Source: Comamonas testosteroni (GTDB lineage: Bacteria; Pseudomonadota; Gammaproteobacteria; Burkholderiales; Burkholderiaceae_C). From it: 64,000 nucleotides of DNA. The stretch is from assembly GCF_014076415.1 (NCBI RefSeq), contig NZ_CP043568.1, positions 248,001-312,000 on the forward strand. Direction: 5' to 3'. This document shows, piece by piece, positions 22,772 to 48,292 of the stretch (position 1 is the stretch's first letter; each line of letters starts with the position of its first letter). The notes beneath the pieces were generated by a model, which was given only the letters and a program-made list of their open reading frames with translations, was not told where the DNA came from and searched no databases. Made by a program: the position numbers and the translations under genes.

Positions 22772-22901
22772 GCCAGGGACACCGAGGAAGGGCCTAAGCC
22801 GGCCGCGCCGCCCCGCACCGAGGGTGTCGTCCCCCTCCCTCGCGAAGCGAGTAGAGAGGCGCCGTGCCACGGGGGGAAGGCGCGTAGCGACTCAGGGGGT
22901 G
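22772..22901 (-). repeat. GC-rich 3'-end repeat family, copy 1
   Basis: The element reads, in the direction of the upstream gene, CCCTGAGTCGCTACGCGCC, C-tract, GGGGGACGACACCCTCGG, a GGCGGCGCGGCCGGC block and CTTCCTCGGTGTCCCTGG. The stop codon of the thiolase-fold gene (22892-22894) lies inside it. Related copies are at 29185, 34096, 35184 and 46928. Confidence 0.8.
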
Positions 22902-29184: not shown

Positions 29185-29254
29185 GGAGACACCGAGGAAG
29201 TGCCACCCCGCACCGAGGGTGTCAGGGGGAAGGCGCGAAGCGACCCAGGGGGTG
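29185..29254 (-). repeat. GC-rich 3'-end repeat family, copy 2 (shortened)
   Basis: A 70-bp shortened copy: the CGACCCAGG..GGAAGGCGCGAAGCG end and the GGAGACACCGAGGAAG end are kept and the central block is missing. It begins directly at the stop codon of the Bug gene (29255) and ends 33 bp before the acyl-CoA ligase start. Confidence 0.75.
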
Positions 29255-34095: not shown

Positions 34096-34214
34096 TCAGG
34101 GACACCGAGCAAGGGCCTGGGCCGGCCGCGCCGCCCCGCAGCGAGGGTGTCACCGGCCGCCCGTATGCTCCCCTCCCGAAGGAGAGGGGGAAGGCGCGTA
34201 GCGACTCAGGGGTG
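34096..34214 (-). repeat. GC-rich 3'-end repeat family, copy 3
   Basis: A copy of the element that begins 7 bp after the stop codon of the MaoC-type gene (34221) and ends about 100 bp before the enoyl-CoA hydratase start. It has the CCCTGAGTCGCTACGCGCC end, the GGCGGCGCGGCCGGC block and the CTCGGTGTCCCTGA end. The central part differs from copy 1. Confidence 0.8.
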
Positions 34215-35183: not shown

Positions 35184-35281
35184 ACCCAGGGTCGCCGAGC
35201 AAGAGCCGCCTCGCGGCGAGGGCGCCGTCCCCCTCCCGCGAAGCGAGAGAGGGGGAAGCGGCGCAGCCGCTCAGGGGGTGC
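35184..35281 (-). repeat. GC-rich 3'-end repeat family, copy 4
   Basis: A 98-bp copy starting 4 bp after the SDR stop codon. It keeps the ACCCCCTGAGCGGCTGCGCC end and the CTCGGCGACCCTGGG end, with a TCTCTCGCTTCGCGGGAGGG hairpin in the centre. Confidence 0.75.
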
Positions 35282-44715: not shown

Positions 44716-45606
44716 ATGAATCCGAACACTGTCCAGATCGACGCTGCCGCCCTGACCAAGCTCCAGTCTTGGCAGGAGCGCAGCGAGACCATGTCCGACA
44801 TCATCACCGCCGCTCCGCTGCGTGCCCTCTCGGCCACGCTGGACCGTGACGACCCGGTGCCTGGAGATGGCTCAGCCGTGCCTGCGTTATGGCACTGGCT
44901 GTACTTTCTGCCGCATGCCCGTCAGAGTGAGATCGGCCCCGACGGGCATCCCCGGCGCGGTGGCTTTCTGCCGCCTGTGCCGCTGCCGCGCCGCATGTGG
45001 GCGGGAGGGAGGATTCGCTGGGAAGCGGGCAATCCGCTGCGCGTGGGGCAGCAGGTGCAGCGCGTCTCCACCATCCGCAGCGTGCAGCACAAGACCGGAC
45101 GCTCGGGCGAGCTGCTGTTCGTGCTGGTGGAGCATCGCTTCTCGAACCAGGACGGTCTGGCGCTGGTCGAGGAGCACGACATCGTCTACCGGGCCGCCGC
45201 CAGGCCCGGCGATCCGGTGCCGCCACCGCAGCAGCCGCCGCTGGCGGGCCAGGCTGCCTGGTCGCGCACCATCGTGCCCGACGACATCTTGCTGTTTCGC
45301 TACTCGGCGCTGACCTTCAACGGCCACCGCATCCACTACGACCGCCAGTATGTGACACAGGTGGAGGGCTACCCGGGCCTGATCGTGCATGGTCCGCTGA
45401 TTGCCACGCTGCTGCTCGATCTGCTGCGCCGCCAGCTGCAGGGCGCCAGGGTGGTCGCGTTCGACTTCAAGGCCTTGCGGCCGACCTTCGACCTGCACCC
45501 TTTCAGCGTGCACGGCAAGCCGCGCGAGGACGGCAGGACCATCGACCTGTGGGCGCGGGATCACGACGGCTTTCTCACCATGCAGGCTACGGCCACGGTG
45601 GCTTGA
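44716..45606 (+). CDS. Mesaconyl-C4-CoA hydratase-like hotdog dehydratase
   Basis: A 296-residue protein with a FAS1-like N-terminal hotdog (TLDRDDPVPGDGSAVPALWHWLYFLPHARQSEIG) and a C-terminal MaoC-like half (FRYSALTFNGHRIHYDRQYVTQVEGYPGLIVHGPL). The residues NGHRIHYD and HGP are the hydratase active-site region. It matches mesaconyl-C4-CoA hydratase and related enzymes that interconvert mesaconyl-CoA or itaconyl-CoA and citramalyl-CoA. It follows the Bug gene by 21 bp. A 5' fragment of a second such gene is at 36411. Confidence 0.86.
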   Translation: MNPNTVQIDAAALTKLQSWQERSETMSDIITAAPLRALSATLDRDDPVPGDGSAVPALWHWLYFLPHARQSEIGPDGHPRRGGFLPPVPLPRRMWAGGRIRWEAGNPLRVGQQVQRVSTIRSVQHKTGRSGELLFVLVEHRFSNQDGLALVEEHDIVYRAAARPGDPVPPPQQPPLAGQAAWSRTIVPDDILLFRYSALTFNGHRIHYDRQYVTQVEGYPGLIVHGPLIATLLLDLLRRQLQGARVVAFDFKALRPTFDLHPFSVHGKPREDGRTIDLWARDHDGFLTMQATATVA

Positions 45607-45668
45607 AGACTGAAACCCATAGCTGATAACGCTTTATGAGTAAGCGTTTGAGGTCAAAAAGGCTTGAA

Positions 45669-46919
45669 ATGATAGAACACACCAGCTCCAATAACCACCA
45701 CGAAATCCGCGATGCCATCCGCGCGCTGTGTGCGGAGTTTCCCGACGAGTATTTCCGCAAGATCGACGAGCAGCGCGTCTATCCCGAGACCTTTGTGGAC
45801 GCGCTGACCAAGGCCGGCTGGCTGGCCGCGCTGATTCCGCAGGAGTACGGTGGCAGCGGCCTGGGCCTGACCGAGGCCAGCGTCATCATGGAGGAGATCA
45901 ACCGCTGTGGCGGCAACTCGGGCGCCTGTCACGGCCAGATGTACAACATGGGCACGCTGCTGCGCCATGGCTCGCAGGCGCAGAAGGAGAAATACCTGCC
46001 GCGCATCGCCTCGGGCGAATGGCGGCTGCAGTCCATGGGTGTCACAGAGCCCACCACGGGCACGGACACCACCAAGATCAAGACCAGCGCCGTGAAGAAG
46101 GACGGGCGCTATGTGATCAATGGCCAGAAGGTCTGGATCAGCCGCATCCAGCACAGCGACTTCATGATCCTGCTGGCGCGCACCACGCCGCTGGCCGAGG
46201 TGAAGAAGAAAAGCGAGGGCATGTCCATCTTCATGGTCGACCTGGCCGAGGCGCAAGGCTTGCCCCCACGCTCCCCTGCTGCGCAAGGGTCGCTGCCCCC
46301 CGAGGGGGCAGCTTTGGGCCTTGGGGCGGCCCGGCAGCCCAAAAAGGGCCTGACCGTGCGTCCCATTCCCAACATGGTCAACCACGAGACCAACGAGCTG
46401 TTCTTCGAGGACCTGGAGATTCCCGAGGAGAACCTGATCGGCGAGGAAGGCAAGGGCTTCAAGTACATCCTGGACGGCCTCAATGCCGAGCGCACGCTGA
46501 TCGCCGCCGAGTGCATAGGCGACGGCTACTGGTTCCTGGACCGCGTGACCAACTATGTGCGCGACCGCCAGGTTTTCGGCCGCCCCATCGGCCAGAACCA
46601 GGGCGTGCAGTTCCCGATCGCCGATGCCTTCATCGAGGTCGAGGCCGCCAATCTCATGCGCTGGAAGGCCTGCGAACTGTTCGATGCGAACCAGGCGATG
46701 GGCGCTCAGGCCAATATGGCCAAGTATCTTGCGGCCAAGGCCAGCTGGGAGGCCGCCAATGCCTGCATCCAGTTCCACGGCGGCTTCGGCTTCGCCTGCG
46801 AATACGACGTGGAGCGCAAGTTCCGCGAGACGCGTCTGTACCAGGTGGCGCCGATCTCCACCAACCTGATCTATTCCTATGTGGCCGAGCACATCCTCGG
46901 GCTGCCCCGCTCGTTTTGA
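45669..46919 (+). CDS. Acyl-CoA dehydrogenase with an in-frame repeat insertion
   Basis: A 416-residue acyl-CoA dehydrogenase; about 388 residues without the insertion, the usual length. Family segments are IPQEYGGSGLGLTEASVIMEE, MGVTEPTTGTDTTKIKTSA, GQKVWISRIQHSDF and CIQFHGGFGFACEYDVERKFRE. Residues 198-225, encoded by 46260-46343, are Pro/Ala/Gly-rich and interrupt a continuous VDLAEAQG..KGLTVRPIPNM loop. The catalytic region reads RLYQVAPISTNLIYSYV, where classical enzymes have RLYEGT, so the base glutamate is not at the usual place. Start ATG 45669 is chosen over 45636 because the family begins there. It sits in the C5-type cluster between the hydratase and the CaiB gene. Confidence 0.85.
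   Translation: MIEHTSSNNHHEIRDAIRALCAEFPDEYFRKIDEQRVYPETFVDALTKAGWLAALIPQEYGGSGLGLTEASVIMEEINRCGGNSGACHGQMYNMGTLLRHGSQAQKEKYLPRIASGEWRLQSMGVTEPTTGTDTTKIKTSAVKKDGRYVINGQKVWISRIQHSDFMILLARTTPLAEVKKKSEGMSIFMVDLAEAQGLPPRSPAAQGSLPPEGAALGLGAARQPKKGLTVRPIPNMVNHETNELFFEDLEIPEENLIGEEGKGFKYILDGLNAERTLIAAECIGDGYWFLDRVTNYVRDRQVFGRPIGQNQGVQFPIADAFIEVEAANLMRWKACELFDANQAMGAQANMAKYLAAKASWEAANACIQFHGGFGFACEYDVERKFRETRLYQVAPISTNLIYSYVAEHILGLPRSF
46260..46343. repeat. GC-rich hairpin element inside the acyl-CoA dehydrogenase gene
   Basis: Exactly 84 bases (28 codons) with a GCTGCCCCC-cga-GGGGGCAGC hairpin. It is inserted in frame in a surface loop, adding 28 Pro/Ala/Gly-rich residues without a stop codon. Composition and hairpin are like the intergenic repeats of this genome and unlike the gene around it. 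Confidence 0.75.
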
Positions 46920-46927
46920 AATGAAGT

Positions 46928-47037
46928 ACCCCCCGAGTCGCTACGCGCCTTCCCGTTGCACGGCGCCCCCAAAGGGGGACGACACCCTCGGGGCGGGGCG
47001 GCGCGGCCGGCCCAGGCCCTTCCTCGGTGTCCCTGGC
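46928..47037 (+). repeat. GC-rich 3'-end repeat family, copy 5
   Basis: Starts 9 bp after the acyl-CoA dehydrogenase stop. It reads CCCCCCGAGTCGCTACGCGC, GGGGGACGACACCCTCGGGG, the GGCGGCGCGGCCGGC block and CTTCCTCGGTGTCCCTGG. It points away from the upstream gene as in the four other copies. Confidence 0.8.
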
Positions 47038-47095
47038 TTTGAGCGCGTCAGTTGTTCGGGTCGTGGGTTTCGCCAAAGTGCAATGGATCTCCAAG

Positions 47096-48292
47096 ATGAA
47101 AAAGCATAGTCTTCGACCCCTCGACGGCATTACCGTGGTCTCGCTGGAACATGCGGTGGCTGCGCCTTTCTGCACCCGCCAGCTCGCCGATCTGGGTGCG
47201 CGCGTGATCAAGGTGGAACGTCCGGGAAGCGGCGATTTCGCGCGCGGCTACGACCAGCGCGTCAACGGCCAATCCTCGCACTTCACCTGGATCAACCGCA
47301 GCAAGCAAAGCCTGGCGCTTGATCTCAAACGCCCCGACGCACCGGAGGCGCTGATGCAGCTGCTCGAAGGCGCCGACGTGCTGGTGCAGAACCTGGCGCC
47401 CGGCGCGGCCGCGCGCATGGGCCTGTCCTATGCGGTGCTGCATGAGCGCTTTCCGCGCCTCATCGTCTGCGACATCAGCGGCTACGGCGCCGACGGCCCC
47501 TACCGCGACAAGAAGGCCTACGACCTGCTGATCCAGAGCGAGGCCGGCTTCCTCTCGGTCACGGGCACGCCCGAGGTGCCGTCCAAGGCCGGCATCTCGG
47601 TGGCCGACATCGCGGCCGGCATGTATGCGTACACCAACATCCTGTCGGCCCTGCTGCTGCGCGGCCGAACGGGCGAGGGAAGCCACATCGATGTCTCCAT
47701 GCTGGAGGCGCTGGGCGAGTGGATGGGCTACCCCATGTACTACGCCTGGGACGGTGCGCCGCCGCCGCCGCGCACCGGCGCCTCGCATGCCAGCATCTAT
47801 CCGTACGGCCCCTTCGAGGCAGGTGATGGCGGCACGGTGATGCTGGGCCTGCAGAACGAGCGCGAATGGAAGCTCTTCTGCGAGCAGGTGCTGCTGCAGC
47901 CCGCGCTGGCCGCGGATGCGCGCTTCGACAGCAATGCGCGCCGCAACGCCAACCGCGAGGAGCTGCGAGCGCTGATCCTGGATGTATTCAACGCGCTGGA
48001 TGCCGCCCAGGTCGTGCAGCGGCTGGACGCGGCCGGCATTGCCAATGCGCGAGTCAACGACATGGCCGGCCTGTGGGCCCATCCGCAGCTGGCCGCGCGT
48101 CAGCGCTGGTGCAGCGTGGGAACGCCGGCCGGGCCGGTGCAGGCGCTGCTGCCGCCCGGCGTCAACAGTGCCTTTGACTACCGCATGGAGGCGGTGCCCT
48201 CCGTGGGTGAGCACAGCGAGGCCATCCTGGCCGAGCTGGGCTGGTCGACCGAGCGCATCCGTGCTCTTTACGCCGAAGAAGCGACTCTGTGA
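47096..48292 (+). CDS. CaiB/BaiF-family CoA-transferase
   Basis: A 398-residue class III CoA-transferase: LDGITVVSLEHAVAAPFCTRQLADLGARVIKVERPGSG at the N-terminus, then YDLLIQSEAGFLSVTG and, for the catalytic aspartate, SVADIAAGMYAYTNILSALL. It moves CoA to a carboxylic acid. Placed between the acyl-CoA dehydrogenase and MmgE/PrpD and with a mesaconyl-CoA-hydratase-like enzyme and a CitE-like lyase nearby, a C5-dicarboxylate such as mesaconate or itaconate is a reasonable acceptor, but this is inference. The ATG at 47096 is the family start; its ribosome site is weak. Confidence 0.87.
   Translation: MKKHSLRPLDGITVVSLEHAVAAPFCTRQLADLGARVIKVERPGSGDFARGYDQRVNGQSSHFTWINRSKQSLALDLKRPDAPEALMQLLEGADVLVQNLAPGAAARMGLSYAVLHERFPRLIVCDISGYGADGPYRDKKAYDLLIQSEAGFLSVTGTPEVPSKAGISVADIAAGMYAYTNILSALLLRGRTGEGSHIDVSMLEALGEWMGYPMYYAWDGAPPPPRTGASHASIYPYGPFEAGDGGTVMLGLQNEREWKLFCEQVLLQPALAADARFDSNARRNANREELRALILDVFNALDAAQVVQRLDAAGIANARVNDMAGLWAHPQLAARQRWCSVGTPAGPVQALLPPGVNSAFDYRMEAVPSVGEHSEAILAELGWSTERIRALYAEEATL

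Follow-up and report, generated by a model that had tools for sequence, protein, structure and literature searches.

An 84-base stretch within a loop of an acyl-CoA dehydrogenase gene of Comamonas testosteroni very probably represents an in-frame insertion of a Comamonadaceae repeat that is dispersed, palindromic, and non-autonomous; the insert is predicted to be translated. The gene lies in a window of 64,000 nucleotides (contig NZ_CP043568.1, positions 248,001 to 312,000), which is the whole stretch of DNA analysed here and to which all positions refer unless a contig is named.

The insert and its host gene

The product of the host gene carries all three acyl-CoA dehydrogenase Pfam domains (N-terminal, middle, and C-terminal) and the fold shared by these enzymes. 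The insert is placed between EAQ and KKGLTV in the protein, and between CAA and AAA AAG GGC in the DNA (Table 1). Comparison codon by codon with empty alleles bore out the original prediction that 84 extra bases are present here, the earlier placement at 46260–46343 being equivalent to ours, and also that they are in frame: the insert contains zero stop codons and leaves the reading frame unchanged. Ten of its 84 bases fall outside the repeat core.

The accompanying prediction of a strong GC hairpin held for the structure and failed for the strength. The 9-bp stem is real, but the folding energy of the stretch did not exceed that of dinucleotide shuffles, of which 53 in 200 folded at least as well (z = −0.56). 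Furthermore, the repeat finder reported no inverted repeats in 46150–46450, and an Rfam search of 45600–47200 gave zero matches up to an E-value of 1. The case for insertion rests on the repeat family described below rather than on folding energy.

Table 1. Positions of the insert, its parts, the host gene, and the second repeat family in the window
Feature	Position	Strand	Basis or remark
Acyl-CoA dehydrogenase gene	45669..46919	+	416 codons plus stop, insert included
In-frame insert, 84 bases, 28 residues (GLPPRSPAAQGSLPPEGAALGLGAARQP)	46257..46340	+	Comparison with empty alleles
Repeat core, 74 bases, full-length forward copy of the dispersed family	46262..46335	+	DNA search and model
Central hairpin, 9-bp stem (GCTGCCCCC / GGGGGCAGC), loop CGA	46292..46312	+	Sequence and predicted fold
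Five insert bases left of the repeat core	46257..46261	+	Sequence, alignment
Five insert bases right of the repeat core	46336..46340	+	Sequence, alignment
Second repeat family	46929–46955	+	Directly behind the acyl-CoA dehydrogenase gene
Second repeat family	22873–22899, 29226–29252, 34187–34213, 35252–35278	−	Pattern search

Other repeats were seen nearby. Five matches in the window, against 0.01 expected, were obtained with up to three mismatches for a second repeat family, whose end is similar (CCCCCTGAGTCGCTACGCGCCTTCCCC...); several copies of it occur elsewhere in the genome. Just upstream of the acyl-CoA dehydrogenase gene, at 45620–45646, lies the palindromic-looking word TAGCTGATAACGCTTTATGAGTAAGCG, which was the sole exact match to its pattern in the window and which we take to belong to a repeat family.

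A dispersed repeat family

Before any model was built, the genome was searched by DNA similarity alone with the insert as the query. This revealed five further copies with E-values from 5.6e-13 to 3.3e-6, and the insert matched a copy elsewhere at 83% over 74 bases; the unit therefore recurs elsewhere in the genome, as originally supposed. An origin by slippage expansion or local duplication within the gene, instead of insertion of a repeat, is extremely improbable given this match, and direct repeats in 46150–46450 were absent under the tool settings used.

Seven aligned copies, including the insert, cover 70–89 bases. Their start (CCCCACGC) and centre (TCGCTGCCCC) are invariant, and their end (CTTGGGGCGGCCCGGC) is nearly so. 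A covariance model (R1) was built from these seven copies, of which the core at 46262–46335 is one. R1 found eight copies in the present genome at E ≤ 1e-4 plus one marginal match, where the E-values are rough and the seven seed copies, all from this genome, match by construction. Within the genus, 37 of 53 genomes gave matches at E ≤ 0.01, and within the family 86 of 200 sampled genomes did so at E ≤ 1e-4, covering 70 of 141 genera; as only the best candidates per genome were scored, copy numbers are minimum values. Tandem copies also occur, with runs at L284 (G039), L299 (G007), and L317 (G049) whose units lie approximately 84–90 bases apart.

Four of the seven copies from the present genome and 21 of 80 surveyed copies were open in all six reading frames. 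The same was true of 1442 of 5000 shuffles of the insert copy and, in the window, of 166 of 1728 stretches of 74 bases; this openness is thus largely an effect of GC content. Among the surveyed copies L280–L358, our impression was that stop-codon-like words stand just upstream of many copies and that A-rich tracts (GATGAAAAA-, GATAAAAA-, and GGCAATAAAA-like) follow many of them.

Occupied and empty alleles

Among the 120 listed homologues of the dehydrogenase, which are the best of 8000 scored and were ranked against the inserted query so that inserted forms are favoured, 35 carried the insert (34 at 416 aa and one at 411 aa) and 85 lacked it (84 at 388 aa and one at 393 aa). Of 90 candidates from a search with the insert region alone, 35 proteins reached E ≤ 0.001. 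All of these have acyl-CoA dehydrogenase domains, and three were new, bringing the insert-bearing proteins to 38 altogether.

Of 80 loci from named genomes, 76 had a loop spacing of 30 residues and the remaining four were unparsed. Among 30 loci from the family search, 27 also showed this spacing, two, from the present genome and one other species, showed a spacing of 58 residues, and one was unparsed. As the original prediction would have it, empty alleles in the orthologue alignment were exactly 28 residues shorter, and its counter-case, a similar loop of unrelated sequence across the family, did not appear: the 103 parsed loci without the insert had a single, constant, shorter loop length.

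Within the genus, two genomes were occupied (the present genome, G000, and G052), and 31 had an uninterrupted close orthologue. The latter was full length in 30 genomes, with 90–99% identity to the query used and the loop read as DNA; in G013, the match was partial and contained a stop codon. A strict E-value search of the genus with the inserted query had returned only the two inserted alleles, missing the empty ones because the insert splits matches to them, and it was repeated with an empty homologue as the query. In the family sample of 399 genomes, G000 and G052 gave the only full-length matches to the insert-spanning query.

History of the insert

In a protein tree of 122 rows, 37 of them inserted, from which the insert and its junction had been left out, the insert label needed four changes, two of which were forced by starred branches; only 3 of the 116 inner branches were starred. 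In a comparison that included 13 empty alleles, G052 differed from the empty allele of G002 at 42 of 1167 bases. G000 differed at 60 of 1167 bases from the empty allele of G024, at 64 from that of G049, and at 89 from G052. The two inserts themselves were identical at 82 of 84 bases, among them 9 of the 10 non-core bases. Both changes are synonymous and none is a replacement, a number too small to demonstrate selection or to rule it out. Across the homologue clusters, the first half of the insert read nearly alike in all of them, and in one cluster the length of 28 residues was kept with a different second half, which a pair of compensating small indels would fit.

Several lineages acquiring the repeat independently at this position would account for the four label changes, at least two of them forced, for the closer empty relatives that G000 and G052 each have, and for the deviating second half in one cluster. 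We nevertheless regard such parallel events as quite improbable in view of the near-identity of the G000 and G052 inserts, which extends to the non-core bases, the near-identical first half in all clusters, and the small number of starred branches. From these sequence comparisons, we read the distribution as one insertion that may have been moved or lost by recombination, with independent insertion being less likely.

In-frame copies in other genes

Altogether, in-frame copies were found at five sites in three genes (one in the acyl-CoA dehydrogenase, two in a ligase, and two in an RNA helicase), with empty alleles and, at some of the five sites, shorter, remnant-like forms. The second in-frame copy of the present genome (G000:C1:113575-113661) is reversed and lies inside an acetoacetate-CoA ligase, identified by NF002937 and TIGR01217, both above cut-off. 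At this first ligase site, the present genome reads LFLWGD-VSTAEPPQGAKAPSGGARLRGSDPHAVGERGGDPF-GKRYL, and most listed relatives read LFLWGD-(A/T)D-GKRYL or similar.

The first ligase site was occupied in 21 of 120 listed homologues. At the second site, the same number of listed homologues comprised 27 with element-like sequence, as judged by a GERG-like motif, 89 empty ones, one with another insertion, and three that were unparsed; both sites were filled in 15 of the 120. Between 14 and 39 residues were added at the second site in the aligned representatives, and the ligase at L225 (G007) combined a full copy at the first site with a short in-frame remnant at the second. In the RNA helicase HrpA (TIGR01967 above cut-off), the first site was occupied in 3 of 51 genomes with a match. 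The second was occupied in G017 (match E-value 0.0092, then read as DNA), and G018 holds a short stretch there that is likely a remnant.

Occupied and empty alleles were examined at the DNA level for six ligase loci and for 18 of 30 helicase loci; the other 12 helicase loci did not fit the search expression. The in-frame claim is most firmly based on these DNA readings; among database proteins, the observation that copies are always in frame is partly an ascertainment effect, because such entries are open frames by construction. Members of one repeat family are thus found in frame in unrelated genes with empty orthologues, which is the behaviour of protein-coding palindromic elements.

Intergenic and intragenic copies

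The repeat is mainly intergenic. Among 108 copies surveyed in other genomes of the genus, five lay in spanning coding-like frames and three of these were convincing (HrpA in two genomes and the ligase in one), a proportion that lies below the whole intragenic count, as the survey skipped tandem neighbours and known intragenic copies. The coding test, which called for GC at codon position 3 minus position 2 above 0.2 on both sides, is crude. L307 and L353 were flagged as coding at this threshold and were not accepted. L210 was flagged at a threshold of 0.15 only, L183, flagged at 0.15, was taken as an antisense frame, and L215 could not be parsed and stands outside the 108. By our own reading of the open reading frames, two of the eight copies in the present genome were intragenic and six were intergenic.

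These proportions, together with our impression that the flanks often carry stop-codon-like words and A-rich tracts, raise almost to an even chance the reading that the repeat has its main role between genes, as an mRNA 3'-end stem-loop, attenuator, or terminator, and that copies inside genes landed there accidentally in the course of this spread. Such a role is compatible with the insertion explanation and would give the intergenic copies an additional function.

Under the insertion explanation, the coding copies look like survivors. Copies of the repeat would insert widely, and most of those landing in genes would be lost. The survivors would be those with a net length divisible by three, a stop-free frame, which GC-rich sequence would help to provide, and a site tolerant of extra residues; they could then persist, shorten via in-frame deletions, and spread by recombination.

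Mobilisation

The genome contains one Y1-transposase-like gene (PF01797 match). None of eight exact words of the two repeat families was found in the 3.3 kb around this gene, and a distant RAYT could still act. Both GTAG and CGTC, the tags that mark the REP superfamilies of these names, were absent from both strands of the seven aligned copies.

Seventeen of 51 copies taken as singletons shared a 6-mer between their flanks (shuffles: mean 7.7, with 0 of 500 reaching 17). However, the shared words were for the most part A-rich tracts that recur at many copies, and a diverged neighbour accompanies some of the 51. Abutting target duplications in 78 copies were not above the level of shuffles, and the flank tests on 51 and 78 copies established no locus-specific target duplication.

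Predicted structure and the fate of the insert

The structure of the window protein was modelled with a mean pLDDT of 80.0. The 50 input sequences came from 45 of the 80 named-genome loci, from four proteins in databases, and from the window protein itself; an earlier model, built on 24 close sequences, reached a poor mean pLDDT of 43.5. The modelled fold matched solved enzymes and was well matched outside the insert. The insert corresponds to residues 197–224, between the strands at 185–191 and 227–233, and its residues 202–224 had pLDDT values under 50. The insert is probably a disordered, flexible loop in an otherwise well-matched predicted fold.

The same 50 aligned sequences support the earlier suggestion that the missing RLYEGT glutamate is a subfamily trait. 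The motif Y-Q-V-A-P is invariant among them, and its Pro395 aligns with the YEGT glutamate of SCAD/MCAD-type enzymes, so that the catalytic base of that type is lacking at this position. Glu274 in N-A-E-R is also invariant in the 50 sequences and presumably occupies the place where isovaleryl- and long-chain enzymes carry their base.

Translation of the insert would give a flexible stretch rich in Pro, Ala, and Gly. Selection for it as a working part of the enzyme, in an interface, in regulation, or in partner binding, appears unlikely. It would explain why every listed member keeps the insert in the clusters around Ottowia-labelled and metagenome proteins (among the best 120 listed, where inserted forms are favoured), why these clusters hold 28 residues although the C-terminal half of the insert differs in one of them, and why the G000 and G052 inserts show synonymous changes only. 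However, 31 genomes of the genus lack the insert, 9 of 28 insert residues changed between P0001 and P0013 compared with 22 of 382 elsewhere, the insert was modelled at low confidence, as expected of a disordered loop, and unrelated proteins hold similar inserts. The insert is probably tolerated rather than useful.

Comparison with known systems

In-frame palindromic repeats are best known from Rickettsia, where Ogata reportedly described the Rickettsia palindromic elements (RPEs) in 2000 and 2002. Rickettsia are obligate intracellular bacteria, and relaxed selection is a natural explanation for such repeats there. The coding repeats here occur in genomes of about 3 to 6.6 million bases and in well-conserved enzymes. 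It is rather doubtful that the Comamonadaceae have an RPE-like system of their own, in which the repeat continues to seed 15–40 disordered residues into unrelated housekeeping enzymes, occupied alleles cross genera by recombination, and some of the loops are now selected; if this were true, a selfish intergenic repeat would be a standing source of new protein loops. The occurrence of occupied, empty, and shortened alleles within one genus makes a direct test of mere tolerance possible, and the same set of alleles allows the study of how a dispersed repeat feeds new sequence into proteins. For annotation, this means that repeats, and not domains, can underlie differences of 15–40 residues in length among orthologues of these genes.

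RPEs, as summarised in PMC10969869, resemble the Comamonas repeat in being multi-copy palindromic repeats that occur in frame in unrelated genes. They differ in length (approximately 150 bases versus a core of about 70–90), in host group, and in intragenic share, which is nearly half for RPEs and 3 convincing cases among 108 surveyed copies for the Comamonas repeat. The likeness drawn in the original prediction is apt for behaviour, namely in-frame copies in unrelated genes with empty alleles, and is a comparison of behaviour and not a claim of homology to the RPE families. The same paper describes the MITEs ERIC, QMITE1, and BOX, which are similarly short and non-autonomous and can contribute coding sequence; MITEs have terminal inverted repeats and a target duplication, which are not established for the Comamonas repeat.

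REPs tagged with GTAG or CGTC, as described in PMC3733652, are mostly intergenic, are sometimes in frame and encode 20–30 residues, and also occur twice in one gene. Hosts of intragenic REPs include Thauera, and RNA helicases of O. terrae are named there. The seven aligned Comamonas copies differ in carrying neither tag, and Comamonas, Delftia, and Acidovorax are not mentioned in the main text of that paper. The original prediction had tied in-frame elements to Rickettsia, where they are indeed known, but in-frame REPs outside that group had already been published (PMC3733652), and the phenomenon is therefore less exclusive than had been thought. A search of the open-licence literature turned up neither a description of this repeat nor a report of coding repeats in Comamonas. 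We file the insert under a known kind of element, to which the Comamonadaceae repeat family is new.
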